This document shows, in pieces, positions 16,317 through 44,897 of a DNA stretch of 64,000 nucleotides; the first letter of the stretch is position 1; every line of letters starts with the position of its first letter. Source of the DNA: Blastococcus litoris (lineage in GTDB: Bacteria > Actinomycetota > Actinomycetes > Mycobacteriales > Geodermatophilaceae); the NCBI RefSeq assembly GCF_003075095.1, contig NZ_QCZF01000007.1:62001-126000 (forward strand), given 5' to 3'. The notes under the pieces were generated by a model. The model did no database searches. It saw only the letters and a list, made by a program, of their open reading frames with translations, and was not told the origin of the DNA. A program made the translations under genes and the position numbers.

Positions 16317-16324
16317 GGCAGGAC

Positions 16325-16734
16325 GACGGACGAGTCGGCTGGGCGGTCGCGTCGGCGGGGGAGACCCCGTCGCCGAGGAACGTCCGGGCTCCACAGGGCA
16401 GGGTGGTCGTTAACAGCGACCCGGGGCGACCCGCGGGACAGTGCCACAGAGAACAGACCGCCAGCGGCTCGCCGCTGGTAAGGGTGAAACGGCGGTGTAA
16501 GAGACCACCGCACACCGGGTGACCGGTGTGGCTCGGTAAACCCCACCCGGAGCAAGGGCAAGAGGGACGGCGGCTCGCCGCAGTCCTGCGCAGGCGTTCG
16601 AGGGCGGCCCGCCCGAGCCTGCGGGTAGCCCGCTCGAGCCTGCCGGCAACGGCAGGCCTAGATGGATGACCGCCCATCGGGAGGCCGTGAGGCACCCGTG
16701 GACAGAACCCGGCGTACAGGCCGACTCGTCCGTC
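16325..16734 (+). ncRNA. rnpB: RNase P RNA, bacterial type A
   Basis: Catalytic RNA that removes tRNA 5' leaders. A perfect 15-bp P1 helix pairs 16325-16339 with 16720-16734. Conserved core blocks follow in order: GAGGAACGTCCGGGCTC near 16374, ACAGGGCAGGGTGGT, the AGAGAACAGACCGCC block, GGGTGAAACGGCGG, TAAGAGACCACCGC, GGTAAACCCCAC, AGATGGATGACCGCC, and the 3' GACAGAACCCGGC. Ends are set from P1 and are approximate. Its final ~34 bases are repeated at 38.16 kb, marking it as an integration target. Confidence 0.97.
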
Positions 16735-16737
16735 GCC
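16701..16737 (+). repeat. Putative attachment site, left (3' end of rnpB)
   Basis: 37-bp direct repeat of 38157-38193, identical at 35 positions, including 30 consecutive bases (16708-16737). It covers the 3' strand of the rnpB P1 helix and 3 bases beyond. Site-specific recombinases often use 3' ends of structural RNA genes and leave such duplications. Confidence 0.8.
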
Positions 16738-16996
16738 CCACCGTGGGCGATCGGCCCCGCGTGCCGCCCGACCTCGCGCGGCGGCTCGGCCGGCTGCGCC
16801 ACTGCGCAGTCGAGCAGCAGGCCTGCCCACACCGGCCACTGTCGTCCGAGGAGTGTCGGGCCGGCATTCGGAGCCGGCGACGAACCGGAGGCGGAACGCC
16901 GAGAGGTCCGATGGTGGCCAGCGCGAACCCCCTGGCACCACCGTGCTGAGGACGTCGCTCTCGCCGGCCGCGGCCGTAGATCGGCGCAACCGCCTG
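16735..16996 (+). other. Island left end, no gene recognised
   Basis: 262 bp between rnpB and the end of the permease gene. Neither strand gives a recognisable protein, and no hairpin of terminator strength was noticed. If an integrase once flanked the attachment site here, no trace is visible to me. Confidence 0.4.
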
Positions 16997-18058
16997 TCAG
17001 CGCGTGTGCACCGCTGCAGCCGGCAGCTCCGCGGGGTCCGGTTCCGCGGCCCCGGTCGGGGCCGGTCCGGCGGACGTGTCGTCGCCTCGGCGCCGCCGGA
17101 CGACTCCCTTCGCCTGACGGCGCTCTCGGCCCGAAGCCAGTGCAACAGCGGCCAGCAGGGCCACACCGTTGAACATCGCCGCGACCCACTGGACGCCGGT
17201 GACCAGCTGCAGCCCCTGCACACCGGTCGCCAGAACGAAGATGGCAAGAAGCGTGCCCCAGACGTTGAGGCGCCCTGGCACCAGCTGTGTCGAGCCCAGG
17301 AAGACGGCCGCGAACGCTGGAAGCAGCAGGGAAGCGCCGAAACTCAGCGAGGGACCGCTCAGGGAGACGAAGAGGACGCCGGCGAAGCCGCTGATCGTGC
17401 CCGAGGCCGCTAGGGAGATCCACGACCACCGGTCGACGGCGATTCCCGACAACCGTGCGGCCTCGGGGTTGCTACCGGACGCCCGCATGTACCGTCCGGC
17501 AGGCGTCTTCTCGAGTACCCACCACACCAGCACTGCGATCACGACGAGATAGACGACGACGAACTGGAAGCCGAAGATGTCCGCCTGCGTCATCGCGGTC
17601 CAGGCGTCGTTCACCACCGGCACGGGCTCCACGTTGCCCGTGATGATGACCTGGACCGCGGCGAGGATCGAGCCCATCGCGAGCGTGGCGATGAAGGAGC
17701 TCACCCGGAGACGGACGACGACGAAGCCGTTCACTGCGCCGACGACGAAGCCGACCACTGCGCCGAGGAGCACAGCGGGCAGGGGGCCCATGACGTCCTT
17801 CGTCTGGACGATGACCGCGGTCATCCCCGCCACGTTCGCCGTCGCACCGATCGAGAGATCGAACTGCCCGGTGACCATGGGGACGAGCAGCGCGAGGGCG
17901 GCGATCGCCGCGATCGCCTGCGTCGAGGCGAGCAAGTGCACCGTCGCCATGGTCGGGAAGGTCAGGGGGGCCAGCACGGAGAAGACCGCGATGAAGATGG
18001 CCCACAGGTACAGGCCGCTGAAGCGGTCGAGACCGAGGTGCAGCCGTCGGAGATCCAT
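16997..18058 (-). CDS. ABC transporter permease, Rbs/BPD_transp_2 family
   Basis: 353 residues with about nine or ten membrane helices and the branched-chain/ribose permease signatures GQFDLSIGATANVAGM and GFAGVLFVSLSGPSLSFG. The C-terminal ~40 residues are charged and Ala/Pro-rich. It would form the membrane channel with the ATPase encoded directly upstream (2 bp gap). An in-frame GTG two codons earlier overlaps the ATPase stop and is an alternative start. Third gene of the binding protein-ATPase-permease operon. Confidence 0.93.
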   Translation of the reverse strand: MDLRRLHLGLDRFSGLYLWAIFIAVFSVLAPLTFPTMATVHLLASTQAIAAIAALALLVPMVTGQFDLSIGATANVAGMTAVIVQTKDVMGPLPAVLLGAVVGFVVGAVNGFVVVRLRVSSFIATLAMGSILAAVQVIITGNVEPVPVVNDAWTAMTQADIFGFQFVVVYLVVIAVLVWWVLEKTPAGRYMRASGSNPEAARLSGIAVDRWSWISLAASGTISGFAGVLFVSLSGPSLSFGASLLLPAFAAVFLGSTQLVPGRLNVWGTLLAIFVLATGVQGLQLVTGVQWVAAMFNGVALLAAVALASGRERRQAKGVVRRRRGDDTSAGPAPTGAAEPDPAELPAAAVHTR

Positions 18059-18060
18059 GG

Positions 18061-19644
18061 TCACTCGGCTTTCTGGGTCGAGGTGTGCTGGTGGAAGCTG
18101 TGATTGATGGCGTTCTCGTTGACGCGCTCGCCGGAGAGCTCCTCGGCAACGCGGCCCGCCCGCATGATCAGCACGCGGTCGCACAGGGTCACGAGTTCTT
18201 CTACGTCCGTCGAGCTGACGAGGACGGCGGTCCCCCGCGCGCTGGCAGACAGCACCTGCCGGTGCAGTTCGGCCTTGGCGCCAACGTCGACCCCCTGGGT
18301 CGGCTCGTCCAGCAGGAGCACGCGGGGATCGATCCGCAGCCATCGCCCCATGACGACCTTCTGCTGGTTGCCACCGCTGAACGTGCGCAGCGGTAGCTTC
18401 ACGCCGTCCCGCGGGCGGACGTCCAGCCGCTCGAACCAGTCGGCGGAGTCGCGCTGCTCCGCTCCGGAACTGAGGAACCCGCGGGCCCAGAAGCGGCGCA
18501 CGTCCGATATCGACAGGTTCTCCGCCGCTGTCAGGTCCATGAACCCGCCGGCCGCCTTGCGGTCCGGGGGTACGTAGGCCAGACCGGCACGAACGGACGC
18601 TGCGGGCCGGAACTGGGCGAGCGGGCGGCCCTCGACGCGAACTGATCCGCCGTCGCGAGGCCGGGCGCCGAAGATGGCCCCGAGAACGGATTCGCGGCCG
18701 GATCCCGTGAGGCCGTAGACGCCGACGATCTCACCGGCGCGGACGGTGAGGGACACGCCCGCGAGCACCTCGCCGGTGACGTCCTCGACCTGCAGGACGG
18801 GAGGAGCGCCGCCGGGCGGCGAAGCTGCGAGGTGGTCTGCCTCCCGCCGTACCTCCTCCAGCTCGCCGCCTACGAGGGCGTGCACCAGGTCGTCGCGGGA
18901 CGTGTCCTCGACGGAGGCGCTGAGGACCAAGACGCCGTCGCGCAGGATGCTGACACGCTGGGCGAGGGCGTAGACCTCGTCGAGGTGGTGGGTCACGTAC
19001 AGGACGCCTAACCCCTCGGCCGCGGCAGTCCTCAGCATCGAGTGCAGGTGGGCCACCTCGGACGCGGGGAGCGAGGCCGTCGGCTCGTCGAGGACCAGGA
19101 CGGTGGCGCGCTCGGACCCGCTGAGCGCTCGCGCGACGGCGACCCCGGTCCGCTGGGCAGCCGTGAGGTCGGCGACCGGTGTCCGAGGGTCGATGTCGAG
19201 CCCGACCCGGGTCAGGGCCTCGCGTGCCACGGCAGTCATGCGGCGTGCCGACACGGTTCCCCACCGGGTGGGGAACCGGTTCCCGAAGTGCAGGTTGTCC
19301 GCGACGCTGGCGTCCTCGATGAGGCCCAGGTCCTGGTGGACGAAGCGCAGTCCGAGGGCGTGGCTGGACTCCGGCGTCCCGAACGCCAATTCCGTGCCGG
19401 CCACCCTGCAACGGCCGGCGTCCGGGCTGTGCAACCCCGAGAGAACCTTGATGAGAGTCGACTTACCCGAGCCGTTCTGACCCAGCAGCATGTGGATCTC
19501 GCCGGGCAGCACGGTCAGCCGGGTCGGCTGGAGCACCGTGCGGCCGCCGAAGGACTTCATCACCCCGTCCAGGGCTAGCGCGGGGGGCGCGGGCGCTGCC
19601 GCGCCCCCCGCGTGCTGCGCCGGACCTGAGTCCTGGGACAGCAT
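18061..19644 (-). CDS. ABC transporter ATPase with two nucleotide-binding domains (RbsA-like)
   Basis: 527 residues. Domain 1 has Walker A GQNGSGKST (55-63), a degenerate signature DLTAAQRTGVAVARAL and Walker B VLVLDEPTAS. Domain 2 has the altered P-loop GLTGSGRES, a clear SGGNQQK signature and VLLLDEPTQG. This asymmetric tandem arrangement is characteristic of the ribose/monosaccharide importer family. It energises import through the adjacent permease. The start lies 2 bp after the binding-protein stop. Confidence 0.94.
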   Translation of the reverse strand: MLSQDSGPAQHAGGAAAPAPPALALDGVMKSFGGRTVLQPTRLTVLPGEIHMLLGQNGSGKSTLIKVLSGLHSPDAGRCRVAGTELAFGTPESSHALGLRFVHQDLGLIEDASVADNLHFGNRFPTRWGTVSARRMTAVAREALTRVGLDIDPRTPVADLTAAQRTGVAVARALSGSERATVLVLDEPTASLPASEVAHLHSMLRTAAAEGLGVLYVTHHLDEVYALAQRVSILRDGVLVLSASVEDTSRDDLVHALVGGELEEVRREADHLAASPPGGAPPVLQVEDVTGEVLAGVSLTVRAGEIVGVYGLTGSGRESVLGAIFGARPRDGGSVRVEGRPLAQFRPAASVRAGLAYVPPDRKAAGGFMDLTAAENLSISDVRRFWARGFLSSGAEQRDSADWFERLDVRPRDGVKLPLRTFSGGNQQKVVMGRWLRIDPRVLLLDEPTQGVDVGAKAELHRQVLSASARGTAVLVSSTDVEELVTLCDRVLIMRAGRVAEELSGERVNENAINHSFHQHTSTQKAE

Positions 19645-19646
19645 CG

Positions 19647-20810
19647 TCAGCCGACCTGCCACAGCGCGAGGTACTGGTCCAGGGCACCTTCGGGCTGGTT
19701 GTAGGGGACGCTCACGTCCGCGGCGTTGTCCGCGTCGAGCACCTGGATGGGGGCGACAAAGTTGCCCTCGAACCCGTCGCTGTCGGTGATCGCGCGCAGG
19801 GCTGCGTCCAAGGCGCCGTAGCCGAGCAACTGGTAGCTGCTCACCGTCCACGCCCCCGCTCCGCCGTTCTGCAGTGCTGTGATCGCTGCTTGGTCCGCCT
19901 GGCGACCGACCACAGTGATGTCGGTCAGCCCGGCGGCCTTGGCGGCGGCGTCGAACCCGTTGGTGTATGCGGCGTTGTCGAACACCACGTACTTGATGCC
20001 GGGATTCGCCCTCAGCGTGTTGACGGTGGTCGGCACGACCTGGCCGTCGCTGACCTGCGCGGCGGTCAACTCGATGGTCTGCAGCTCGCAGTCCGGGCAC
20101 GCCGTCCCCAGCTCGCTCTCGAGCCCGTCGGCGACGGCGAGGTAGGACGGATAGGCCGTGACGTTGGCGTGCAGCACCTGTCCGGTCCCCTCGGAGTCGA
20201 CGGCGATCCAGTCGGCCAGCAGGCTGCCCACCGAGTTCTCCTGGTCGCAGTTGCTGGGGCCGGCGATGATCGTCTCGGTCGCCTTGACCGGACACACCCC
20301 GGCCGCCACGATCGGCACCCCCGCCTCCTCGTAGGCCTTGACGGTGGCCTCGCCGTACAGGTCGGGCGACACACCCGTGACGACGACGGCCGATGGCTCC
20401 TTCGAGAGAGCCGTCATCAGCGCCGACTGCAGGGTCGCCGGGTTGGCCGTGTCGTAGGTGACCTCGTCGTAGTCCCAGTCGATCGCCTCGGCCGCCTCCT
20501 GGACGCCGTCACCGATGATCGACGTGGCTGGGACGGCGTTGGCGAGAAAGATGACCGAACCGGACGACGGCGGCGCCTCGCTCAGCTCCGTGGTCTGAGA
20601 GATCTCGGTGGGCGCCTTGAGTGCCCCGTCGATGTTCTCCTGCGCCTGGTCGAGGCCGCTGGTGTCGCCGCTCCCTGCCGACGCGGAGGCGCCGTCTTCC
20701 CCTGCGCCGCATGCGGCCAGCGTGAGCGCGGCGGTGGCGAGGAGTGCGACGGCGGCACCCGGCCGACGGTGCGGCCGGCGGCCGGCTGAGGACTTCGAGA
20801 TCGACTTCAC
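19647..20810 (-). CDS. Substrate-binding lipoprotein, Rbs-type (peripla_BP_4)
   Basis: 387 residues. The GTG at 20810 gives an Arg-rich N-terminus, a hydrophobic segment and the lipobox LAAC with Cys34, so it is a membrane-anchored receptor. The fold is that of ribose/autoinducer-2-type binding proteins. Unusually for that group it has at least four further Cys: GVCPV, SNCDQ and CPDC, which could form disulfides. Given its repressor and neighbours, the ligand is probably the catabolic substrate of the island rather than a common sugar; this is inference. Confidence 0.9.
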   Translation of the reverse strand: MKSISKSSAGRRPHRRPGAAVALLATAALTLAACGAGEDGASASAGSGDTSGLDQAQENIDGALKAPTEISQTTELSEAPPSSGSVIFLANAVPATSIIGDGVQEAAEAIDWDYDEVTYDTANPATLQSALMTALSKEPSAVVVTGVSPDLYGEATVKAYEEAGVPIVAAGVCPVKATETIIAGPSNCDQENSVGSLLADWIAVDSEGTGQVLHANVTAYPSYLAVADGLESELGTACPDCELQTIELTAAQVSDGQVVPTTVNTLRANPGIKYVVFDNAAYTNGFDAAAKAAGLTDITVVGRQADQAAITALQNGGAGAWTVSSYQLLGYGALDAALRAITDSDGFEGNFVAPIQVLDADNAADVSVPYNQPEGALDQYLALWQVG

Positions 20811-20996
20811 GACGGACCAGCTTTCTGCGGGACCTCGACGGCCCGGACGACTCAGGGACAGGAACTCGGCCGCTCTCCCTGCCGCCCGTCGATGCGGGAG
20901 GCCCGTCGAGGACCGAGGCGGAACCGGGGGATCGCTGGTGGGTCGGACGGACAGGCTTGCTGCTTTCACCCCGACGCCAGTCGCTGGCGTGGCACG
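20811..20996 (-). other. 5' leader of the ABC operon
   Basis: About 185 nt separate the predicted -10 from the binding-protein start. The reading frame stays open upstream, but the lipoprotein signal fixes the start at 20810. No riboswitch or leader peptide is recognised. Confidence 0.4.
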
Positions 20997-21025
20997 AGAC
21001 TAGGGTCACATCGGCGACGCGTCAA
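20997..21025 (-). promoter_or_regulatory. Promoter of the ABC importer operon
   Basis: On the minus strand, -35 TTGACG (21025-21020), a 17-bp spacer and -10 TAGTCT (21002-20997). The -35 overlaps four bases of the TCAAC-N6-GTTGA palindrome at 21022-21037, so repressor binding would occlude polymerase. Confidence 0.7.
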
Positions 21026-21037
21026 CAACCACGTTGA
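21022..21037. promoter_or_regulatory. Operator a, TCAAC-N6-GTTGA
   Basis: Perfect arms TCAAC and GTTGA with spacer AACCAC. It overlaps the -35 of the ABC importer promoter and is exactly 100 bp from operator b. Confidence 0.75.
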
Positions 21038-21121
21038 TAAGGTCTCGGACGAGAACGAGTGGGTCGCTGAGCCGACCACCGCTCGACTTCGTGAGACCGG
21101 ACAGTGCGGAACGAGCCGGTA

Positions 21122-21137
21122 TCAACCAGCGTGTTGA
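21122..21137. promoter_or_regulatory. Operator b, TCAAC-N6-GTTGA
   Basis: Arms TCAAC and GTTGA, spacer CAGCGT. The right arm runs into TTGACA (21134-21139), a consensus -35 for the MFS gene, with a weak TGTGCT 17 bp downstream as -10. Confidence 0.75.
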
Positions 21138-21210
21138 CAGCATGCCCCTGAGGCGGTGTGCTGCAGCCCCGGTCCCTGAGCGTCATCGTCGATCGGCCGG
21201 AGGGACACGG

Positions 21211-22383
21211 ATGGCACAGCTCACGACGCGGTCCCGGTACGAAGGAGCGCGTCTCGTCACCGGCGGCGTCCTGCTCGACACGGCCGGGATCCTGCCGGTC
21301 GGCCTGGTCGGCGCTCTGGCCGCGCCCATCGGCGAGTCGCTCGCTCTCACCAGTGGGCGGCTGGCCGTGGTGGTCACCGGCTTCTTCCTCACCGGCAGCG
21401 TCACCGCGATGCTGCTCGGGAGCCGCATCGACCGGGCCGGTCCACGACGGGCTGCTGGTGCCGCCGGCATCGTGACCGTGGCCGCCGTGCTCGCGGTCGC
21501 GGTGCTCGCCCGTCACTGGGTGGTCCTGCTCGCGTCGATCTGCGTCTGCGGCGCCGCCTTCTCCATCACCATGCCGGCCACCAACGCGCTCCTGCGAGCC
21601 CGTATCCCGGAGGCGCGGCTGGCGACCGTGGTGAGCATCAAGCAGTGCGCGGTACCCGTGGCCCTGCTGCTCGCGGGGACGGCGGTGGCGACGGTCGAGG
21701 ACTGGCGGTGGGCGTTCGTGGCCGTGGTGGCCGTGCCCCTCGCCGGTTGGTCACTGCTCCCACGGTTCCCCGTGCCACGGGGCGACGCCGACCCGGGGAG
21801 TGGTCGGTCCGCGCGCCGGGGGGTCCTCTCCGTCGGTGTGAGCGTGGGCCTGGCGTCCCTGCTACCGGGCGCGCTGACCGGATTCGCGGTACTCACGCTC
21901 ACGGACGGGGGCCTGGCCGCGCCCGTGGCCGGCGCCGTCGTGATCGCGGCGAACGTCCTGGGCATCGTCGTGCGTCTCGGGGCCGGCGTCTGGGCGGACC
22001 GGAAGGGATCGGACGGCTACCGTCCGGTCGCCGTCCTCATGGCCGCCGGAGCGGTCGGGGCCGTCCTGCTCGGGACCGGTCCGGTGCCTCTGCTGATCGC
22101 CGGGGCGCTGCTGGCCTACGGCTTCGGGTGGGGCTGGTCGGGACTGACCTACTTCCTCGTGGTCAGGGGCCCCGCCGAGCACGCCGGCTCGACCAGTTCC
22201 GTCATCCAGGCCGGTGGCATGGCGGGCTCGGCCAGCGGGCCGCTGGCGATGGGCCTGCTCCTCCAGGCGACGGACCACACCGGTGCGTGGTGGTGCGTCG
22301 CCGCCTTCACGGCCGTGGCCGCGCTGGTCGTCGCCCGTGCCGCGTCCGCGCGGCGGGCGGATCAGCCCAGGGCGTCGGTGTAG
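21211..22383 (+). CDS. MFS transporter
   Basis: 390 residues, 12 predicted helices. The loop 2-3 signature is present as GSRIDRAGPRR. The second half carries WADRKGSDGYRP in the equivalent loop. GGAGGG precedes the ATG by 6 nt. It is controlled from a promoter under operator b and probably gives a second import or efflux route for the island's substrate. Its last 22 bp overlap the 3' end of the convergent SDR gene. Confidence 0.9.
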   Translation: MAQLTTRSRYEGARLVTGGVLLDTAGILPVGLVGALAAPIGESLALTSGRLAVVVTGFFLTGSVTAMLLGSRIDRAGPRRAAGAAGIVTVAAVLAVAVLARHWVVLLASICVCGAAFSITMPATNALLRARIPEARLATVVSIKQCAVPVALLLAGTAVATVEDWRWAFVAVVAVPLAGWSLLPRFPVPRGDADPGSGRSARRGVLSVGVSVGLASLLPGALTGFAVLTLTDGGLAAPVAGAVVIAANVLGIVVRLGAGVWADRKGSDGYRPVAVLMAAGAVGAVLLGTGPVPLLIAGALLAYGFGWGWSGLTYFLVVRGPAEHAGSTSSVIQAGGMAGSASGPLAMGLLLQATDHTGAWWCVAAFTAVAALVVARAASARRADQPRASV

Positions 22384-23294
22384 AGCGCCAGCTCGTCGCG
22401 CATGCTCCTGGGCACGCTGTAACCCGTGGGGTCGCAGATGGCGTCCCAGTTGTCGCGGACGTCGGCCCAGGAGGCGTCCCGCCCGACCCAGCCGGGCGCC
22501 TCGGCGAGGAACATCCGTGCGATGCGCCCGCCGCCCACGGAGAACGCCTCACCGGTGGCCGGGCAGGAGTCGTGGCAGAGCCACGCCACGAGCGGGGACA
22601 CCTGGTCCGGGGACAGGCGCTGGAACAAGCCACCCATCAGGTCGCTCGCCCGGGCGCGGTCGCCGTCCTTGCTGCTGCTCATCCTGGTCAGCGCGAGGGG
22701 TGCGATGGCGTTGGAGCGGATACCGTGCGGCGCCCCCTCCACCGCGAGCATGCGCATCAGGCCGAAGACCCCGGCCTTGGCCGAGCCGTAGTTCGCATGC
22801 CCGGGATTGCCGAACAGACCGGCCGCGGACGTCGTGAAGACGACGTGGCCACCGCCCTGTTCGCGCATGTGCGCCCAGGCGGGGCGGGTGACGTTGTAGG
22901 ACCCGCGCAGGTGCACGTCCAGCACCGCGTCCCAGGTCTCCTCGTCGAGGTCCTCGAACACCTTGTCCCGGAGGATGCCGGCGTTGTTGACCACGATGTC
23001 GACGCGTCCGAATTCACGGACGGCCGTCTCGATGAGGGCCTGTCCACCGGCCGCGGTCGCGACGGATGACGTGTCGGCCACGGCTTCGCCGCCTGCTTCG
23101 TCGATCTCGCGGACGACGTCGTGAGCGGGGGAGGGCGAGGAACCCGAGCCGCTCACGGAGCCCCCGATGTCGTTCACGACGACGGCGGCGCCCAGCGATG
23201 CGAGCAGGCGGGCGTGGGAGCGGCCGAGGCCGGCGCCGGCTCCCGTGACGACGGCGACCCGCCCGCGGAACGGGACCTCGTCCTCAGGCGACAC
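22362..23294 (-). CDS. Short-chain dehydrogenase, multifunctional-enzyme-2 type
   Basis: 310 residues. NAD(P) motif TGAGAGLG near residue 18, NNAG at ~107, catalytic Ser in FTTSAAG and the YxxxK motif as YGSAK. It closely resembles the (3R)-hydroxyacyl-CoA dehydrogenase domain of peroxisomal MFE-2, including the long NDIGGS region after beta-2. It probably oxidises a 3-hydroxyacyl-CoA. The GTG start overlaps the end of the monooxygenase gene by 11 bp, so both come from the operator c promoter. Confidence 0.92.
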   Translation of the reverse strand: MSPEDEVPFRGRVAVVTGAGAGLGRSHARLLASLGAAVVVNDIGGSVSGSGSSPSPAHDVVREIDEAGGEAVADTSSVATAAGGQALIETAVREFGRVDIVVNNAGILRDKVFEDLDEETWDAVLDVHLRGSYNVTRPAWAHMREQGGGHVVFTTSAAGLFGNPGHANYGSAKAGVFGLMRMLAVEGAPHGIRSNAIAPLALTRMSSSKDGDRARASDLMGGLFQRLSPDQVSPLVAWLCHDSCPATGEAFSVGGGRIARMFLAEAPGWVGRDASWADVRDNWDAICDPTGYSVPRSMRDELALYTDALG

Positions 23295-25089: not shown

Positions 25090-25222
25090 GTGAACGCATC
25101 TCCTCACGAGGGGGCGGCCGGGGGTCCCGGCGCTGGGCGGAACGACGGGCGTCGGCGCCTTCGTGGCGGCGCACGCCCCGCCGGCCGAGCGAGTTCAGTA
25201 GAGACCATGCCGTCGGGTGCTG

Positions 25223-25238
25223 TCAACACATACGTTGA
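25223..25238. promoter_or_regulatory. Operator c, TCAAC-N6-GTTGA
   Basis: Arms TCAAC and GTTGA with spacer ACATAC; flanks extend the symmetry (TGTCAAC / GTTGACA). It overlaps the -35 TTGACA of the monooxygenase-SDR operon. Confidence 0.78.
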
Positions 25239-25364
25239 CAACTCGCGGCGAAAACCTGTTGCCCTGATCGCGGTCAGGTCACCCGTGCATCGTCTTCCCG
25301 CAGGTTGGAGAGGGCTCGGTCGAGAAGCGAGCGGGCAGGCGGAGTGCGACTCTGCGGCAATTTG

Positions 25365-25380
25365 TCAACGTGAGCGTTGA
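25365..25380. promoter_or_regulatory. Operator d, TCAAC-N6-GTTGA
   Basis: Arms TCAAC and GTTGA with spacer GTGAGC. The right arm supplies the first four bases of the acyl-CoA dehydrogenase -35 hexamer. Confidence 0.8.
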
Positions 25381-25405
25381 CGAGTGCGTCGGCCCTGCGT
25401 ACGGT
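25377..25405 (+). promoter_or_regulatory. Promoter of the acyl-CoA dehydrogenase gene
   Basis: -35 TTGACG (25377-25382), 17-bp spacer, -10 TACGGT (25400-25405). The gene's GTG start at 25434 has AAGGAGG upstream. Operator d overlaps the -35, the clearest repressor-promoter overlap on the plus strand. Confidence 0.75.
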
Positions 25406-25433
25406 CGGCGGCGTTCCCCTCAAGGAGGCTGTC

Positions 25434-26603: not shown

Positions 26604-26697
26604 GTCCTCCGGTCGACCGCCCCGGGTGGACCCCGCGGCGCCCTGCGCGCCGGCTCGCCGCGCCGCGCGGCCTTTGGAACCCGACTACTTTCGTTCG

Positions 26698-26713
26698 TCA
26701 ACCTGCCTGTTGA
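26698..26713. promoter_or_regulatory. Operator e, TCAAC-N6-GTTGA
   Basis: Arms TCAAC and GTTGA, spacer CTGCCT. Continues into TTGACG (26710-26715) with TTCCGT 17 bp downstream, a plausible promoter for the aldehyde dehydrogenase gene. Confidence 0.75.
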
Positions 26714-26787
26714 CGGCACGCGTTCGAGCACATTCCGTAAGCCTCGTGCAGCGCACGAGTGAACGTTGACGCGGGCAGCCTCGGCTG

Positions 26788-26803
26788 TCAACGTCGATGT
26801 TGC
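26788..26803. promoter_or_regulatory. Operator f, TCAAC-N6-GTTGC (one mismatch)
   Basis: Left arm TCAAC, spacer GTCGAT, right arm GTTGC instead of GTTGA. It lies 90 bp downstream of operator e and 53 bp before the aldehyde dehydrogenase start. It would sit in the transcribed leader if the promoter at e is used. Confidence 0.6.
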
Positions 26804-26856
26804 CAGCCCGCCACGACGTCGTCGGCGGTGGGACTCGTCTGAGTCAAGGAGCACAC

Positions 26857-28323: not shown

Positions 28324-28455
28324 GCGCATTGGACCCGCCGAGAGGGCGGTGGCGTGCCGGGTCCGCCGGTGCGCCGCCGCCCTGTCAGCGATTGAGCGCC
28401 CCTGGCCCCTGCTCGAAGGGCACGATTCGGGGAGGGGCCGCGGTCGGTCCGAGCC

Positions 28456-30707: not shown

Positions 30708-32674
30708 GAGTCCTCTCCTTCGAGGGTGTGCCACCGGGCGATGGCGTCGAGCGCATCGGGGCTGACCAGGCTGTCGCGGCTCACGACGGAGTCGACGGCA
30801 GCGCCCTGCAGGATCCGTTTGACCGGGGTCTCGAGCTTCTTGCCGGACAGGGTCCGTGGGAGTGCGGTCAGGACCACCACGTCGTCAGGCACGTGCCGCG
30901 GCGACAGCTCCGAGCGGAGCCGACGGCGGATCTCACCCCGCACGCGCTCCTCGTCCTCCGGCCCGGGGCCGACCACGAACAGGATCAACCGGCCCGCGCC
31001 GCCCGCCGGGTCCTCGAGGTGGACGACGAGGCTGTCGGTCACGCCGGGCACGTCCTCGGCCACCGAGTAGAAGTCCGAGGTGCCCAGCCGGACGCCGCCG
31101 CGGTTCAGGGTTGAGTCCGATCGGCCCGAGATCACGCTGGCGCCGTCCTCGAACAGGCAGATCCAGTCGCCGTGCGTCCACACGCCCGGGTTCTGGTCGT
31201 AGTAGGCCGCGCGCAGCCGCCGGCCGTCCGGGTCGCCGGCCAGGCCCACGGGCATCGACGGCATCGGGGTGGTGACGACGAGCTCGCCGGGCATCCCGAG
31301 CACGGGGGCACCGGAGTTGTCGAGCGCCGCGACGTCCACGCCCAGCATGCGCACGGGGATCTCCCCGGCCCGGACCGGGCTCAGCGGCGAGGCCCCGACG
31401 AAGGCCGAGCAGATGTCGGTGCCACCGGACGCGGAGCCGAGCAGCACGCCGGGGGACACGTGCTCGTAGACGTAGGAGTAGCCCTCGGCCGGGAGCGGCG
31501 AACCGGTCGAGCCCAGGCCGCGCAGGGCCGACAGGTCGTACTCGCTGCCCGGCCGGAGGCCGGCCGCCCGGCAGGTCATGAGGAAGGACGCCGACGTGCC
31601 CAGGTAGGTCACGCGCTCGTCCGCGGCGGCCCGCCAGAGCGTGCCGAGGTCGGGCCAGCCGAGATTCCCGTCGAGGCACACCACCGCCGCGCCGTGGAGG
31701 AGCGCGCTGACGGCGTAGTTCCACATCATCCAGCCGGTGGTGGAGAACCACAGGAAGCGGTCGCCCGGTCCGACGTCGTTGTGCAGCCCCAGGGCCTTGG
31801 CGTGCTCGAGCAGGATCCCGCCGTGCCCGTGGACGATCGCCTTGGGCAGACCGGTGGTCCCGGAGCTGAACAGCACGTAGAGCGGGTGGTCGAAGGGAAC
31901 CCGGGCGAACTCCAGTGGCCCCTCGTCCCGCAGCAGGACCGCCCACGGCAGGCCGTCGGGCAGGCCGTCGCCCAGGTAGGGGATCGAGACGACCTCCCGG
32001 ACCGAGGGCAGCGCACCCCGGATCGCCGCGACCTCCTCACGCCGGTCCATCGCCTTGTCGCCGTAGCGGAGCCCGTCGACGGCCAGGAGGACGACCGGCT
32101 CGACCTGCGACAACCGGTCGACGACCGCCCGGGGGCCGAACTCAGGTGGGCAGCTGACCCACACCGCTCCCAGGGAGGCCGTCGCCAGGAAGGCGACGAT
32201 CGCCTCGGGGATGTGCGGCAGGTACCCGGCGACCGTGTCCCCGGGGCGCACCCCGAGGCCGAGCAGCCCGGTCCGGCAGCGCGCGACCTGCTCGCGCAGG
32301 TCGTCGAAGCCGAGCTCCACCCGCGCCCGCGTCTGCGAGAGGCCGATCACCGCCGGGCCCTCGACGCCCGGGTGCCGCAGGGCGTGCTCCGGGTAGGACA
32401 GTCTGGCGCCGGGCAGCCACGTCGCAGGCATCGTGCGGTCGGCCAGGAACGACGTCGCGCCGTCGATCCGCAGGTCGAAGAACTCCGCGACCGCTCGCCA
32501 GAAGCCGTCCAGGTCCGCGACCGACCAGGCCCAGAGCTCGTCGTACGTGCTCGGCGCCCCTCGGCCGCTCTCCGCCAGCCAGGCGCAGAAGCGGCCCATC
32601 CGGGTGCGCTCGAGGGCGTCCGGACCCGGGCTCCACAGGACCTCGCCCCGGGGCGGGGCCGGCGCGGTCGTCAC
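30704..32674 (-). CDS. Acetoacetyl-CoA synthetase
   Basis: 656 residues, the family's usual length. An N-terminal AACS/ACAS_N domain (LWSPGPDALERTRM, TYDELWAWSV) is followed by the adenylating core with LFSSGTTGLPKAIVHGHGG, FSTTGWMMWN and TDICSAFVG, ending with the catalytic Lys in LSGKKLETPVKR. It turns acetoacetate, CoA and ATP into acetoacetyl-CoA. The GTG start overlaps the racemase stop. With an HMG-CoA lyase-like gene in the same operon, acetoacetate may be a pathway product, though another 3-oxo acid is possible. Confidence 0.9.
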   Translation of the reverse strand: MTTAPAPPRGEVLWSPGPDALERTRMGRFCAWLAESGRGAPSTYDELWAWSVADLDGFWRAVAEFFDLRIDGATSFLADRTMPATWLPGARLSYPEHALRHPGVEGPAVIGLSQTRARVELGFDDLREQVARCRTGLLGLGVRPGDTVAGYLPHIPEAIVAFLATASLGAVWVSCPPEFGPRAVVDRLSQVEPVVLLAVDGLRYGDKAMDRREEVAAIRGALPSVREVVSIPYLGDGLPDGLPWAVLLRDEGPLEFARVPFDHPLYVLFSSGTTGLPKAIVHGHGGILLEHAKALGLHNDVGPGDRFLWFSTTGWMMWNYAVSALLHGAAVVCLDGNLGWPDLGTLWRAAADERVTYLGTSASFLMTCRAAGLRPGSEYDLSALRGLGSTGSPLPAEGYSYVYEHVSPGVLLGSASGGTDICSAFVGASPLSPVRAGEIPVRMLGVDVAALDNSGAPVLGMPGELVVTTPMPSMPVGLAGDPDGRRLRAAYYDQNPGVWTHGDWICLFEDGASVISGRSDSTLNRGGVRLGTSDFYSVAEDVPGVTDSLVVHLEDPAGGAGRLILFVVGPGPEDEERVRGEIRRRLRSELSPRHVPDDVVVLTALPRTLSGKKLETPVKRILQGAAVDSVVSRDSLVSPDALDAIARWHTLEGEDS

Positions 32675-33819
32675 CGGACCCCCTCCACCACGCCGGCCGT
32701 GCGCACTGCTGCTGCATCCGCCAGCACGTCGGTGGTGTGGGCCCCGACTGCCGGAGGCGGCCCAGGCAGGGGCAGGGTGCTCCGGGACAGCCGTGGGCCG
32801 GGCGCCGGCTGAGTCACGCCGGCGACGTCGACGTAGGTCCGCCGGGCGAGGTGGTGGGGGTGCTCCACGGCCTCGGGGAAGGTGAGCACCGGGGTGACGC
32901 AGGCGTCGGTCCCGTCGAAGAGCGCCGACCAGTGGGCGAGGTCCTCGGCGGCGAAGATCGTGGCCAGGGTGCGGGCGAGCTCGCGGCAGGAGTCCTCGTC
33001 GTCGCGTCGCCAGTCGGCGGGGTCCAGACCCACGGTCCGCAGCAGCAGGGCGAAGAACCGGGGCTCGATGGCGCCCACCGCGACGGCGCGCCCGTCCCGG
33101 GTGGCGTAGGTGCGGTACCAGGGGCGGCTGCCGTCGAAGGCGTTGGTGCCCCGCGGTCCCCACCGGCCCGTGGCGAGCATGCCCAGGGTGGTCGCGGTCA
33201 GCCCGGCGACACCGTCGCTGATCGCGGTGTCGACGACCTGGCCGCGGCCGGACCGCTCGCGCTCGAAGAGTGCCGCCAGCACGCCGAAGGCGAGGTAGAG
33301 GCCGCCTCCCGCGTAGTCGCCGAGCAGGTTCAGCGGGACGGGCGGCGGGCGGTCGGGGTCACCCATGGCGTCGAGCGCGCCGCTGAGCGCCACGTAGTTG
33401 ATGTCGTGGCCGGCCGCCTGGGCCAGCGGGCCGTCCTGCCCCCACCCGGTCATGCGCGCGTAGACGAGGCGCGGGTTGCGCGTCAGGCAGTCCTTCGGTC
33501 CGATGCCCAGACGCTCGGCGGCCCCGGGCCGCATGCCCTCGATGAGGACGTCGGCGGTGTCCAGCAGTCCCAGCAGAGCGGCGCGGCCGTCGTCGTCCTT
33601 GAGGTCCAGGACGACGCTGCGCTGGCTGCGTCGCCGCGGGTCCTGCGCGGGCGGGACCGAGGTCGTCTGCTCCGTGGGCCGGTCGACGACGACGACGTCG
33701 GCCCCCAGGTCGGCGAGCATCATGGCCGCGTGGGGGCCTGGTCCGAGGGATGCCAGGTGGATCACGCGGATCCCGTGCAGAGGGGCGGGGGAGGTCGGCA
33801 CCGCCCGGTCGCCGCTCAT
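32671..33819 (-). CDS. Alpha-methylacyl-CoA racemase (CaiB/BaiF family)
   Basis: 382 residues. The racemase catalytic set is present: His138 in GHDINY, Asp168 in GDYAGGG and Glu252 in IEPRFF. Their spacing nearly matches that of the M. tuberculosis enzyme MCR (His126, Asp156, Glu241), which separates this from class III CoA-transferases. It would interconvert 2R- and 2S-methylacyl-CoA so that a stereospecific dehydrogenase can act, pointing to a methyl-branched substrate. ATGA and GTGA overlaps join it to its operon neighbours. Confidence 0.88.
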   Translation of the reverse strand: MSGDRAVPTSPAPLHGIRVIHLASLGPGPHAAMMLADLGADVVVVDRPTEQTTSVPPAQDPRRRSQRSVVLDLKDDDGRAALLGLLDTADVLIEGMRPGAAERLGIGPKDCLTRNPRLVYARMTGWGQDGPLAQAAGHDINYVALSGALDAMGDPDRPPPVPLNLLGDYAGGGLYLAFGVLAALFERERSGRGQVVDTAISDGVAGLTATTLGMLATGRWGPRGTNAFDGSRPWYRTYATRDGRAVAVGAIEPRFFALLLRTVGLDPADWRRDDEDSCRELARTLATIFAAEDLAHWSALFDGTDACVTPVLTFPEAVEHPHHLARRTYVDVAGVTQPAPGPRLSRSTLPLPGPPPAVGAHTTDVLADAAAVRTAGVVEGVR

Positions 33820-34577
33820 CCGAACCGCGGGTCTCTGCGCTCGGTGAAGGCGCTGAAGCCTTCGAGGGCGTCCTCGCGCCGGTAGCCCTCCAGGGCGACG
33901 TCGGCCTCCCAGGCGAAGGCGTCAGCCAGCTCCATGTTCTGGCCCTGGTAGGCCAGCTCCTTGGTGCGCGCGACGGCCCACGGGCTGTAGCCGGCGATGG
34001 TCCGGGCCCACTCCATGGCCGCATCGACGACCGACTCGTCGTCCACGACGCGCTGGGCGAGCCCGATGGCGGCGGCCTCCTCGCCGTCCACGGTCCGCGC
34101 CAGCAGCAGGAGCTCGAGCGCCTTGGACAGCCCGATGAGCCGGGTGAGCCGCTGGCTCTGCTGGGCCCCCTGCACGGCCCCGCGCCAGAGGCCGGTGGGA
34201 CCGATGCGGGCACCGCGGCCGACCACCCGCAGGTCGCAGGCGAGCGCGAGGGCGAACCCGCCGCCCACCGCGTAGCCCTGGATCGCGGCGATGAACGGCT
34301 TCCAGATCGGCCACGGGCGGGGGATGGGTGGCGGACCGCCACCGTCGGGGCCGAACGAGCTGTTCTCCTGGTACGCGTCGATGTCGCCGCCGGAGCTGAA
34401 CGCCTTGTCGCCGGCGCCGCGGATCACGGCGACGCGGATGTCGTCGTCCTCCTCGATGCGGGCGTACGCCTCCGTGAGGCCCGCCCGCATCTCGGCGTCC
34501 ACGGCGTTGCGCTTGGCCTCGTTGTCGAGCACGACGACGGCGATGCCGTCCGAGACGCTGAAGTCGATCCGTCCCAT
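33816..34577 (-). CDS. Enoyl-CoA hydratase/isomerase family protein (first copy)
   Basis: 253 residues of crotonase fold. The oxyanion-hole segments are AFSSGGDIDAY and IQGYAVGGGFALALACDL. The usual catalytic Glu positions carry LWRGAVQGAQQ, so the acid/base pair differs from classical enoyl-CoA hydratase; isomerase, hydrolase or C-C lyase activity is equally possible. It overlaps the HMG-CoA lyase-like gene upstream (TGATG) and the racemase gene downstream. Confidence 0.87.
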   Translation of the reverse strand: MGRIDFSVSDGIAVVVLDNEAKRNAVDAEMRAGLTEAYARIEEDDDIRVAVIRGAGDKAFSSGGDIDAYQENSSFGPDGGGPPPIPRPWPIWKPFIAAIQGYAVGGGFALALACDLRVVGRGARIGPTGLWRGAVQGAQQSQRLTRLIGLSKALELLLLARTVDGEEAAAIGLAQRVVDDESVVDAAMEWARTIAGYSPWAVARTKELAYQGQNMELADAFAWEADVALEGYRREDALEGFSAFTERRDPRFG

Positions 34578-35524
34578 CAGTGGACCTCCGTCGTTCGCAC
34601 GGGCCCGGACCGCTGGATCCGGCTGTGGAGCGGGCGGCCGAGGACGTCCTCGGCGAGGCGGCCGGCGCGCAGCAGGGTCGGCAGGTCGATGCCGGTGGGC
34701 ACGTCCATCTGCGTCAGGGCGGCGACCAGGTCCTCGGTCACCACGTTGCCGCTCTCGCCGACGTCTCCCTGGTCGACAGCGGACGGTTCGCCCCCGACGC
34801 CCCCGAGGCTGGCGTCGACGGTGCGTACCCCCGCTTCGATCGCGGCGAGGGTGTTGGCGATGCCGACTCCGCGGTTGTCGTGGAAGTGGGCGACGAAGTC
34901 GACGTCCGGCCACTGCGTCACCGCGTCGGTGAACAGACGGCGGACCCCACGCGGGTCGGCCATGCCGGTGGTGTCGCCGAACATGATCGACCGGACCCCG
35001 AGGCCGTGCGCCCAGTCCACGAGCCCGAACACGGTGTCCGGCTCGACCCGGCCCTGGATGGGACACCCCCACGCGGTCGCCACACCGATCAGCGGGTCGA
35101 TCCCGGCCGTCCCGAGCGTGTCCACCATGGCGGCCACCTGCTCCTTGTGAGCAGCGTGATCGCGGCGCAGGTTGGCCACGTTGTGCGGTTCGCTCGCCGA
35201 GAACGGGATGCCGCAGCGGTCGATCCGCCGGATGCCGCGGTGCGCCTCGACCACGCGGGAGGCGCCGCGCACGTTCACCGTGAGCACCCGGATGCGGAAG
35301 GACTCGTCGATCCCTGCCAGCACCTGCTCGGCGTCGGCGAACTGCGGCACCACCGACGCGGGGACGAAGGACGCCGCGTCGATCTCGCCCACTCCGCTGG
35401 ATGCCGCCGCGGTGATGACGCTCAGCTTCGCGGACGTCGAGAGGGTCTCGGGCCAGCCCTGGATGCCGTCGCGAGCCCAGGCCTCGCAGACCGAGACGGG
35501 ATCGTGCGTCTCGACGGCGGTCAC
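34577..35524 (-). CDS. HMG-CoA lyase-like protein lacking the signature cysteine
   Basis: 315 residues of the HMGL/DRE-TIM family. RDGIQ near the N-terminus and HFHDN (213-217) are the metal-site motifs. The signature loop, which in HMG-CoA lyases reads GGCPYA, is GGEPSA here (244-249), followed by a conserved GNVVTEDLV. The mobile catalytic Cys is therefore replaced, probably by Glu246. It may cleave or condense a related substrate, or be inactive as a classical lyase. GTGA overlap with the cyclase gene. Confidence 0.82.
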   Translation of the reverse strand: MTAVETHDPVSVCEAWARDGIQGWPETLSTSAKLSVITAAASSGVGEIDAASFVPASVVPQFADAEQVLAGIDESFRIRVLTVNVRGASRVVEAHRGIRRIDRCGIPFSASEPHNVANLRRDHAAHKEQVAAMVDTLGTAGIDPLIGVATAWGCPIQGRVEPDTVFGLVDWAHGLGVRSIMFGDTTGMADPRGVRRLFTDAVTQWPDVDFVAHFHDNRGVGIANTLAAIEAGVRTVDASLGGVGGEPSAVDQGDVGESGNVVTEDLVAALTQMDVPTGIDLPTLLRAGRLAEDVLGRPLHSRIQRSGPVRTTEVH

Positions 35525-36423
35525 AGGACCGCCACCGGGTTCACCGGGCTCGCCACGCCTCCGACGAGGCGGAGCGGTGCCACCACGAGCAGGAAGTCGG
35601 TCCGACCGGTCGCGGCCAGCTCCTCGAGGTCCATGAGCTCCAGGAGGTGCACCCCCCGGTTCCGGATCAGGGCGACGTGCATGGGTGCGGCGTCAGCGGG
35701 GTCGGGGGAGGGGCCCGCCTCGACCGCGATGTTGTCCGCCCCGACGAGGGCGAAGCCCTGCTCGTCGATCCAGGCCGCGCACGACGGGTCGAGGCCGGCC
35801 CACGTCAGTGCGCTCGCGGTGCCGGCACGCCACCGGGCGAGCCAGCCGGTCCGGACGAGCAGGGCGTCGCCCGGCTCGGGCGTGAGCCCGGCCTGGTCGA
35901 GCGCCCCCTGCAGGTCGTCGGCGGTCAGCCGGTGGTCATCGGTGTCCGCGGGACCGTGCGGCGGTCCCGCGTCCACGAACAGGGCGCGGGTGACGATCGG
36001 GCCGGCCTTGTCGATGCCGCATCGTGCCGCGCCGCGACTGGTCACCTCGTCAGCGGAGAAGCCGTTCCACATCCGGTGGTCGGCCCACACGTGGGCCAGG
36101 GCGTCGAGGTGGGTGGTGGCGCCGGTGGGCAGCACCAGGGTGTCGTCGGCGAAGCCGAAGCCCCGCTCGCTCAGGCCGGCCGCGTAGTCACCGCCGTCCC
36201 GGACCATGAAGTGCTGGAGTGCAGGGCGGCGGTCGGCACCGGGGCCCTGTCCCGAACGCAGGGGAAGGCCGAGGGAGACGGGCGTCCCGGCCCGCACGCT
36301 GGCCAGACCGCGGAGCGTCGCCTCCGGGGTGACCCGGTTCAGGGCTCCGCGCTCGTCGTCGTCCCCCCAGCGGCCCCAGTTCGACGCCAGGACGTCCGAT
36401 GTCCCGGCCGCCTCCGCGCTCAC
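35521..36423 (-). CDS. Cyclase family (kynurenine formamidase-like) metal hydrolase
   Basis: 300 residues. The metal motif of this family appears as TGATTHLDALAHVW (family form HxGTHxDxPxH, first residues altered). N-terminal NWGRWGDDDERGALN is typical of the cyclase group. Known members hydrolyse formylkynurenine, isatin or cyclic esters and imides. In a CoA-thioester operon together with a Baeyer-Villiger-type enzyme, hydrolysis of a lactone or cyclic diketone is a reasonable guess. Confidence 0.83.
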   Translation of the reverse strand: MSAEAAGTSDVLASNWGRWGDDDERGALNRVTPEATLRGLASVRAGTPVSLGLPLRSGQGPGADRRPALQHFMVRDGGDYAAGLSERGFGFADDTLVLPTGATTHLDALAHVWADHRMWNGFSADEVTSRGAARCGIDKAGPIVTRALFVDAGPPHGPADTDDHRLTADDLQGALDQAGLTPEPGDALLVRTGWLARWRAGTASALTWAGLDPSCAAWIDEQGFALVGADNIAVEAGPSPDPADAAPMHVALIRNRGVHLLELMDLEELAATGRTDFLLVVAPLRLVGGVASPVNPVAVL

Positions 36424-37208
36424 CGGGTCCGCCAGGCCGGGAGGCGCTTCTCCGCGAAGGCCGCCGTGCCCTCTCGGGCGTCGGCGACCCCGAGGTTGAC
36501 CGTCAGCGCGGCCTGCAGCATCTGCAGGCGCGTGTCGACGTCCCCGTTCACAGCCGTGTAGAACGCCGTGCGGCCGAGGGCCACGGCCTGGGGGGAGGCG
36601 TGGCGCAGTTCGTCGGCCAGGGCGTCGACGGCCTTGTCGAGCTCGTCGTGCGGGACCACGTCCGAGACGAAGCCTAGCCGGGCTCCCTCAGGCGCGCTGA
36701 TGCGCCGAGCGGTGAGCATGAGGCCGAGTGCCTGCTTCGGCGGCATCCAGTGCAGCAGCGGCACCGTGATCATGTAAGGCCAGAGCCCGACGTGGACCTC
36801 CGGCACCCCGAACTGGGCGCGGTCGCTCGCGACCACGAAGTCGCAGGCGAGGGCCAGGCCGAAGCCACCGGCGAGTGCGAAGCCCTGCACCCTGGCGATG
36901 GTGGGCTTGCCGAGCGCCCACAGGTCCCCGAACAGCTGCGCCAGCATCCCACGGTCCTGGTGTGCCCGGAGCGCGTCTCCCTGGGCAGCCATCTCGCGGA
37001 GGTCCCCGCCGGCGCAGAAGGCCTTGTCGCCGGCGCCCTCGAGGACGAGGACGCGGGCGGTGTCGTCGCGGGCAACGGCGGCCACCCCCTCGCGCAGGCC
37101 GGTGAAGACCGACGCGCTGAGGGCGTTGCGCTGCTCCGGTCGGTTGATCCGCAACCGGGCGACGCCGTCGGCGACGTCCAGCAGGACGTCGTCACTGCTC
37201 GCAGTCAT
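36420..37208 (-). CDS. Enoyl-CoA hydratase/isomerase family protein (second copy, operon first gene)
   Basis: 262 residues of crotonase fold: RPEQRNALS, AFCAGGDLREM (oxyanion hole) and VQGFALAGGFGLALACDF. At the catalytic segment PEVHVGLWP one of the two usual Glu is present. It differs from the other copy in the operon, so the two probably act on different intermediates. The ATG at 37208 has AGAGG upstream. First gene of an eight-gene operon in which every junction overlaps by 1-4 bases. Confidence 0.88.
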   Translation of the reverse strand: MTASSDDVLLDVADGVARLRINRPEQRNALSASVFTGLREGVAAVARDDTARVLVLEGAGDKAFCAGGDLREMAAQGDALRAHQDRGMLAQLFGDLWALGKPTIARVQGFALAGGFGLALACDFVVASDRAQFGVPEVHVGLWPYMITVPLLHWMPPKQALGLMLTARRISAPEGARLGFVSDVVPHDELDKAVDALADELRHASPQAVALGRTAFYTAVNGDVDTRLQMLQAALTVNLGVADAREGTAAFAEKRLPAWRTR

Positions 37209-37260
37209 GACCTCTGCCCTTCTCGGCCGCTCGTCGACGGGCGCCGCGGTTGAAGGGGAA

Positions 37261-37289
37261 AAGCTATCAACGTCGGTGTTGACAGTCAA
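37261..37289 (-). promoter_or_regulatory. Promoter of the eight-gene catabolic operon
   Basis: Minus strand: -35 TTGACT (37289-37284), a 17-bp spacer (37283-37267) and -10 TAGCTT (37266-37261). The spacer contains operator g almost exactly, so bound repressor would lie between -35 and -10. Confidence 0.72.
37267..37282. promoter_or_regulatory. Operator g, TCAAC-N6-GTTGA
   Basis: Arms TCAAC and GTTGA, spacer GTCGGT. It lies between the repressor gene and the catabolic operon. For the repressor it precedes TATAGT (37295-37300), suggesting autoregulation. A further half-site TCAAC follows at 37286. Confidence 0.8.
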
Positions 37290-37327
37290 CGCCCTATAGT
37301 TTGGACTCACAGCGTGAAGGGGTGCTC

Positions 37328-37993
37328 ATGAGTTCGATCGGCTCGCGCCGCGCGGCCGCTGCGGCGGCCGCCGCAGACAGCCCGGCGTACCAGGAGCGGC
37401 GGGACGCGATCCGGGCAGCCGCCGGTCGCGTCTTCCACCGTCAGGGGTTCGCGGCCACCAAGCTGACCGACGTCGCAGAGGAAGCCGGGATGGACCGGGC
37501 CTCCCTCTACTACTACGTGGGCTCCAAGGAGCAGTTGTTCCGCGAGGTCGTCGCCGACGCGGCGTCGGCCAACATCGTCGACGCCGAGCGGATCGCCCAG
37601 TCGGAGGCGCCTGCCCGGGAGAAGCTGACGCTCCTGATCGGCTCGCTGATGACCTCGTTCGAGCGGCACTTCCCCTATCTGTACGTGCTGGTGCAGGAGG
37701 ACTTCCAGAAGCTGAACCACCACGCCGACCAGCCCGACAGCGAGTGGATGGCCGTCCTGCGGGACTGGAACGACCGGTACGTGAACGCGGTGAAGTCGGT
37801 GATCTCCCAGGGGTTGCGCTCGGGGGAGCTACGCAGCTCGTTGCCCGCAGGGATCATCGCGAATGCGCTCATCGGGATGATGGATTCCTCGCACGTGTGG
37901 TTCCGTCCCAACGGCATGATGGACGCAGCCGAGATCGGCGCCGGGATGGCGGACATGCTGCTGGACGGCCTGGCCGGCTCGCCACCCAGCTGA
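37328..37993 (+). CDS. TetR-family transcriptional repressor of the island regulon
   Basis: 221 residues. After an Ala-rich start, the helix-turn-helix spans about residues 25-70 (RVFHRQGFAATKLTDVAEE, then MDRASLYYYVGSKEQLF). The C-terminal part is the ligand domain, similar to TetR proteins that sense acyl-CoA or hydrophobic compounds. GAAGGGG precedes the ATG at 37328. It is divergent from the operon it flanks. The eight palindromes of the segment are its probable targets, and an acyl-CoA pathway intermediate its probable inducer; both are inferences. Confidence 0.9.
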   Translation: MSSIGSRRAAAAAAAADSPAYQERRDAIRAAAGRVFHRQGFAATKLTDVAEEAGMDRASLYYYVGSKEQLFREVVADAASANIVDAERIAQSEAPAREKLTLLIGSLMTSFERHFPYLYVLVQEDFQKLNHHADQPDSEWMAVLRDWNDRYVNAVKSVISQGLRSGELRSSLPAGIIANALIGMMDSSHVWFRPNGMMDAAEIGAGMADMLLDGLAGSPPS

Positions 37994-38118
37994 GTCTCCT
38001 CGTCGTCGGTGGTTGTTCCGAGACGCGGTGCGCCTCGTCGCCGAAGTGGCTCCGTTGAGCCGAGGTCCGTCCGTCAGCGGCCCGCTGCGCCAATCCAGGA
38101 CGCTCGGCGACCAGCTCA

Positions 38119-38134
38119 TCAACAGGGATGTTGA
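38119..38134. promoter_or_regulatory. Operator h, TCAAC-N6-GTTGA, without an obvious gene
   Basis: Perfect arms with spacer AGGGAT and extended TTGACAA on one side. It lies 22 bp from the right attachment repeat. The TetR and LuxR genes on either side both have their 3' ends toward it, so no recognised gene is placed to be controlled by it. Confidence 0.7.
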
Positions 38135-38156
38135 CAACCGGCTCTTCTTCAGGCTC

Positions 38157-38193
38157 GACAGTTCCCGGCGTACAGGCCGACTCGTCCGTCGCC
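38157..38193 (+). repeat. Putative attachment site, right (rnpB 3'-end remnant)
   Basis: Same orientation and 35 of 37 bases as 16701-16737, with 30 identical in a row (38164-38193). No other part of RNase P RNA is found beside it, so it is a fragment rather than a second gene. Confidence 0.8.
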
Positions 38194-44890: not shown

Positions 44891-44897
44891 CGGGCCG

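Follow-up and report, generated by a model that had tools for sequence, protein, structure and literature searches.

A catabolic island of Blastococcus litoris bracketed by copies of the rnpB tail, and rnpB as a recurrent integration site in actinobacteria

In a 64,000-nucleotide stretch of the Blastococcus litoris genome (RefSeq assembly GCF_003075095.1, contig NZ_QCZF01000007.1, positions 62,001 to 126,000; hereafter the window), the 3' end of the RNase P RNA gene, rnpB, is found a second time at the far side of a 21.4-kb block of catabolic genes. How did this second copy arise, and is the block between the two copies an island inserted at rnpB? Known islands in structural-RNA genes carry an integrase, target the 3' end of the RNA gene, keep that gene whole and have a direct repeat at their far end. 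An initial annotation of the window had proposed a site-specific insertion that kept rnpB whole. We find good support for insertion at rnpB. In actinobacteria this gene is used repeatedly for integration and has a group of integrases of its own, and the window island occupies the site without one.

The two copies of the tail lie on the same strand and match at 35 of 37 bases, 30 of which are consecutive and identical, exactly at the positions first annotated (Table 1). The gene gives a full-length match to Rfam RF00010 (281.3 bits, model positions 1-367), corresponding to a class A RNase P RNA, and is whole; as had been annotated, only its 3' end is copied. The exact 30-nt core spans the final 25 nt of the RNase P RNA and 5 further bases, and it includes the 3' strand of the terminal helix, which we take to be P1. 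Positions 16720-16734 are the perfect 15-nt complement of 16325-16339, and the best duplex of this helix at the window has 16 Watson-Crick pairs. The window contains no further exact direct repeat as long as 24 bases. Two occurrences of the core are found in the draft genome (87 contigs) when up to 3 mismatches in 25 are allowed; the reversed control pattern does not occur. At up to 8 mismatches, neither strand of the window holds a third tail besides the two copies and the 5' helix strand of rnpB. A degenerate third tail after the island was rejected, the best candidate on the + strand of 38201-46000 having 11 mismatches in 29.

The DNA at rnpB was compared by blastn (matches of at least 100 bases being listed) with 20 stretches of up to 20 kb from 19 relatives, one of which (G007) gave two; our own handles beginning with G, C, L and f denote genomes, contigs, loci and families. 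Three stretches (L041, L044 and L045) stop at rnpB or close to it and are uninformative downstream, which leaves 17 informative ones. The upstream side of rnpB and the DNA from about 45.4 kb onward are common to most relatives, and window positions 17-38 kb have no DNA match beside rnpB in any of the 17. In L032 and L033, the 45.4-kb gene starts about 0.9 kb past rnpB, making these near-empty sites, and other relatives have differing DNA between rnpB and this gene. Two full rnpB matches were present in G007 (contigs C253 and C15); either the bin is mixed or the genome has a second rnpB. The block was also sought elsewhere by DNA searches in which at most two candidates were scored per genome. 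Matches of up to about 1.9 kb only were obtained for 18300-38150 in 107 other genomes of the family (E≤1e-100), for 28400-38150 in 297 other genomes of the order (E≤1e-200) and for 21000-30700 in 395 other genomes of the phylum (E≤1e-150). No donor of the island was found in these searches, the family genomes giving short matches of 66-76% identity only.

The composition of the block also differs from that of its surroundings. Its guanine-plus-cytosine (GC) content is 71.3%, versus 75.1% for positions 1-16330 and 73.3% for positions 45402-64000, and GC increases directly past the distal copy. The median GC content at third codon positions (GC3) was 0.906 in 16 open reading frames (ORFs) inside and 0.962 in 16 outside (Mann-Whitney p 7e-5), in sets that were hand-picked, with some starts uncertain and one out-of-frame inside ORF dropped.

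Brackets of this kind recur in other genomes. Within the genus, 5 of 16 genomes, the window's included, have two same-strand tail copies on one contig (G000, G003, G006, G013 and, with 3 mismatches, G015), and G005 and G001 have a tail copy at a contig end. In a sample of 298 genomes of the order, the tail pattern was present in 145 and the reversed control in 7. Two-tail genomes were counted in this sample for the window's family only: among the matches listed, 12 of 51 genomes, again including the window's, have at least two same-strand tails on one contig. In four of them (G015, G022, G280 and G299), the second copies differ by 2-3 mismatches; the pair in G273 does not include the actual rnpB end. 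Three rnpB tails lie in one 18-kb stretch of L146 (G194:C56), as in a tandem array of elements. In L140-L146 (family f16), the inverted repeat CCAGCTCAGAGCC...GGCTCTGAGCTGG, or one near it, followed by T-rich DNA, stands directly past the tail; in L142, L144 and L146 this inverted repeat is also found past a distal copy. Together with the T-rich DNA, it may act as a terminator supplied to rnpB by the element.

In close relatives, elements built in the same way have a tyrosine integrase directly next to rnpB. In G006 and G016, a match to PF00589 is found about 120 bp from the 3' end of rnpB; G013 has one within its bracket. These proteins, which share 88-96% identity with that of G006, belong to a single family, and the coding end of each is toward rnpB; the G013 frame appears to be broken by a stop near the N-terminus. 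When named genomes were scanned with the G006 integrase protein alone, the best 80 of 103 confirmed matches represented 79 distinct loci, to which the following counts refer. rnpB is present in 65 of them, and the integrase is convergent with it in 56 of these 65, its match ending 31-142 bp from the rnpB 3' end in 45 convergent loci. Eight others have the integrase downstream of rnpB, at a distance of 178-303 bp, and directed away from it, and one is otherwise arranged. The remaining 14 of the 79 have no rnpB within the available DNA. ARAGORN, applied to 52 integrase loci, found a tRNA gene in 4, at 3-8.5 kb from the integrase. Both things that the initial annotation had suggested looking for in other actinobacteria, rnpB-tail repeats and integrases beside rnpB, are thus found, the latter widely.

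A second copy of the host's own tail was found downstream of rnpB in 25 of the 65 loci and upstream in none, in a search that allowed up to 5 mismatches in 28 and in flanks too short for the far end of larger elements. Each tail copy follows the tail of its own host and pairs with the helix strand of that host. Helix pairing was considered as a clue to which tail is element-derived and proved uninformative: in 26 pairs from these 25 loci less L101, the near copy was better in 5, equal in 17 and worse in 4. Integrase loci from separate searches overlap (L066 with G016 and L059 with G212, for example), so that counts are not additive. In a tree of 64 integrases, adjacency to rnpB was clustered (6 changes over 32 rows, versus a shuffled mean of 21.7), with some non-rnpB rows among the rnpB-adjacent ones and many forks open. 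This clustering is strong but does not prove a single origin.

We built a hidden Markov model (HMM) from 41 integrases of the protein scan and applied it to 25 chosen bracketed or half-bracketed loci; some of the 41 are genes also inside the tested brackets, and at least one listed bracket (G215) was omitted from the set. An integrase match at E<1e-40 was obtained in 17 of the 25. The eight without a strong match are the window, L038, L040, L150, L151, L154, L155 and L156, among which L154 has an integrase fragment (E 7.5e-6), and L150 and L156 lack rnpB in the fetched stretch. Partial integrase matches beside rnpB (L118, L120, L127, L130, L131 and L135) may reflect decay at the site; L132 is cut by a contig end. 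A phage origin of the integrase group was rejected, all 2842 matching phage records being below 60% identity (36.9% at the top among the matches listed), as was a plasmid origin, with all 746 matching plasmid records below 60% (37.1% at the top among the matches listed). Two gut 'phage' records with rnpB tails, considered as a source of attP, contain full-length matches to rnpB; they are probably host DNA and yield none. One locus labelled 'Bacillus sp. AZ43' (L058, SPQJ01000010.1) seems identical to contig C2 of G006, from the window's genus, and its label looks wrong.

These findings make it highly likely that the bracket of the window was made by site-specific recombination at the rnpB tail. 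The attP site of an element would have recombined with the last 25-30 bases of rnpB, acting as attB; a copy of these bases, the 3' strand of the terminal helix among them, would have come with the element. Because the element carried its own rnpB-tail bases, rnpB would be whole at one end of the insert and a second tail would be left at 38157-38193. Since no integrase remains in the island, we can only infer the enzyme that made it, which would have been a tyrosine integrase of the rnpB type. The integrase end of the element may have been lost later, leaving an island that would now be movable solely via another integrase acting in trans, or immobile. The initial annotation is right on the repeat and very probably right on its mechanism, since none of the 17 informative stretches has the block beside rnpB and relatives have such brackets and integrases.

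Several observations weigh against this explanation. The relatives did not show the exact empty site predicted by the initial annotation, in which rnpB would run straight into the sequence after 38193. Pfam identified neither an integrase nor an Xis, relaxase or Rep gene in the ORFs tiling the island. The initial annotation had already noted that the interval lacks a recognised integrase, and this held: Pfam gave no recombinase family, the rnpB-type integrase HMM gave no match in window ORFs of at least 60 aa at E≤0.01, and a remnant sought in 16701-45600 was rejected at a best E of about 0.8. Furthermore, a close rnpB-type integrase is lacking in the window genome, in which the best relatives of the family are 44-45% identical and located beside tRNA genes; in the tree they branch apart with two non-rnpB rows (support 96/77). 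The left arm of the window's distal copy resembles those of other elements in its last bases only. GTTCC precedes it, as it does the distal copies of G006 and G016, and since this is all that is shared, we do not claim the window element as a close member of their lineage. Finally, GC is uneven within the island: it is about 0.68-0.73 between 17 and 31 kb, then about 0.735-0.75 between 31 and 36 kb; the near-flank level of the latter part means that the block may be a mosaic.

With respect to the empty site, the DNA beyond the distal copy is itself accessory. We considered that the sequence after 38193 might be native chromosome and rejected this, as it is accessory in other genomes, where it lies away from rnpB (G330 and G002). 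The interval 38239-45557 is made up of two parts with homologues at unrelated places in other genomes of the family. Because the block at 38239-43707 has homologues away from rnpB, the DNA between rnpB and 45.4 kb probably holds at least two acquisitions.

We considered the possibility that integration made the two tails and that other recombination later brought in the catabolic genes, in part or in full. Such accretion would account for the different DNA that fills the interval between rnpB and 45.4 kb in different relatives, for the three-tail stretch of L146, for the separately accessory DNA at 38.2-45.4 kb, for the lack of an integrase and for the difference in GC between about 17-31 kb and 31-36 kb. 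Yet GC rises just past the distal copy, GC3 is lower inside than outside, and neither a transposase family (among the Pfam matches) nor a further tail copy was seen inside the island. We therefore regard accretion as unlikely, though deserving serious consideration, and lean towards arrival of the whole 21.4 kb in one event.

A related question is whether the island is still mobile in trans through the rnpB-type integrases of other elements, in the manner of a cis-mobilisable element (CIME), i.e. an att-flanked element without an integrase. Like CIMEs, the island has two att-like ends and no recombinase was seen in it; its movement in trans is hypothetical. The 30 identical bases kept in both copies would fit such mobility, as would the eight of 25 chosen brackets that have no strong integrase match while their relatives have one. 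The window genome, however, has no close rnpB-type integrase, and no second bearer of the island was found in the family, order and phylum searches, which makes present mobility a rather doubtful prospect. Chance, or plain duplication of an rnpB fragment without integration, is extremely improbable, because the repeat is unique in the window, its core occurs only twice in the genome, 25 of 65 loci have a second copy downstream and none has one upstream, and integrases lie inside 17 of the 25 chosen brackets, even if the second copy of L038 (G015; around 4901 in reverse complement coordinates) shares rnpB-like bases past the core and resembles a longer partial duplicate.

The gene content of the island was determined with Pfam on ORFs chosen to tile the interval, and with NCBIfam (Table 1). 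The matches are consistent with the catabolic character annotated at the outset and suggest an acyl-coenzyme A (acyl-CoA) catabolic cluster, which would end at acetoacetate and 3-hydroxy-3-methylglutaryl-CoA (HMG-CoA).

Table 1. Positions of the rnpB site, the island genes and the downstream DNA in the window (ABC, ATP-binding cassette; MFS, major facilitator superfamily)
Feature	Coordinates	Strand	Basis
5' strand of rnpB terminal helix	16325..16339	+	complement to 16720-16734 read from sequence
rnpB, intact, insertion target	16331..16732	+	Rfam RF00010
rnpB-side attachment copy (attL-like), core 16708-16737	16701..16737	+	sequence repeat
Island, 21.4 kb	16738..38156		bracket, GC, comparison with relatives
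Sugar-type ABC permease (BPD_transp_2)	16997..18343	-	Pfam
Sugar-type ABC ATPase, true start downstream of ORF start	18061..20295	-	Pfam; NCBIfam AraG/RbsA-like below cut-offs
Periplasmic sugar-binding protein (Peripla_BP_4)	19647..20969	-	Pfam
MFS transporter	21034..22383	+	Pfam
Short-chain dehydrogenase	22362..23294	-	Pfam
Flavin monooxygenase (FMO-like)	23284..25107	-	Pfam
Acyl-CoA dehydrogenase	25377..26603	+	Pfam
Aldehyde dehydrogenase	26797..28323	+	Pfam
DUF2889 protein, true start probably near 29030	28456..29520	-	Pfam
Acyl-CoA ligase	29040..30734	-	Pfam
Acetoacetate--CoA ligase, true start probably near 32650	30704..33163	-	NCBIfam TIGR01217 above cut-off
Class III CoA-transferase	32671..33819	-	Pfam
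Enoyl-CoA hydratase, true start probably near 34560	33816..35072	-	Pfam
HMG-CoA-lyase-like protein	34577..35524	-	Pfam
Putative cyclase (PF04199)	35521..36423	-	Pfam
Enoyl-CoA hydratase	36420..37310	-	Pfam
TetR regulator, final gene ahead of distal repeat	37301..37993	+	Pfam
Distal attachment copy (attR-like), core 38164-38193	38157..38193	+	sequence repeat
Second accessory block: LuxR, AraC, MFS	38239..43707		homologous block away from rnpB in G330 and G002
Sigma factor (DUF6596) and YCII gene pair	43745..45557	-	homologues at many other family locations
First rnpB-downstream gene kept near rnpB by some relatives (native flank)	45402..45866	+	matches in L032, L033, L034, L035

Two element types are found at rnpB in other genomes. 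In the TrwC relaxase type, represented by L046 (G016), an integrase gene (int), an HTH_17 (Xis-like) gene and a 937-aa TrwC relaxase/helicase adjoin rnpB between two rnpB tails; deeper in this element, L046 9267-12665 holds a match to AbiEii and a candidate defence gene (PDC-S39). In L142 (G039, family f16), int, HTH_17, RepSA and FtsK/SpoIIIE, all of them near the far end, lie between two tails; this is the gene set of pSAM2, an element that itself inserts at a tRNA gene. The likeness of the rnpB occupants to TrwC-relaxase integrative mobilisable elements thus resides in L046, and that to pSAM2-type actinomycete elements in the RepSA/FtsK set of L142. The window island, in contrast, is catabolic with no recognised mobilisation gene, and RepSA/Tra with int and xis, the pSAM2-type set of actinomycete integrative and conjugative elements, is not among its Pfam matches. 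With islands of structural-RNA genes it shares the intact target gene and the far-end repeat, its target being rnpB; unlike them, and unlike most of the chosen comparable brackets, it has no recognisable integrase. In a survey of island targets, tRNA and tmRNA genes made up 33.8%, protein-coding genes 43.4% and intergenic sites 22.8%, rnpB not being named (PMC12424338). No description of rnpB as attB was found among the matches listed in open-access full texts, a scope that mostly excludes subscription journals. In the passages available from PMC4256840, PMC2516327, PMC8776855, PMC12884075, PMC4524478, PMC6582537, PMC5462765, PMC3541175, PMC2705793 and PMC5771137, rnpB is never treated as an integration site. 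An earlier description may exist.

A broader proposal, which we put forward tentatively and rate somewhat below even, is that rnpB is a major hub of integration in Actinomycetota, served by dedicated integrases and by a host-matched helix strand that rebuilds the ribozyme, and that the window block is integrase-less cargo movable in trans. The integrases found at rnpB constitute a set with a conserved attB inside an essential gene, and upon insertion an essential ribozyme exchanges part of its terminal helix. Island finders restricted to tRNA and tmRNA genes would overlook the class inserted at rnpB, which is a predictable spot for finding mobile and catabolic genes in many actinobacteria.

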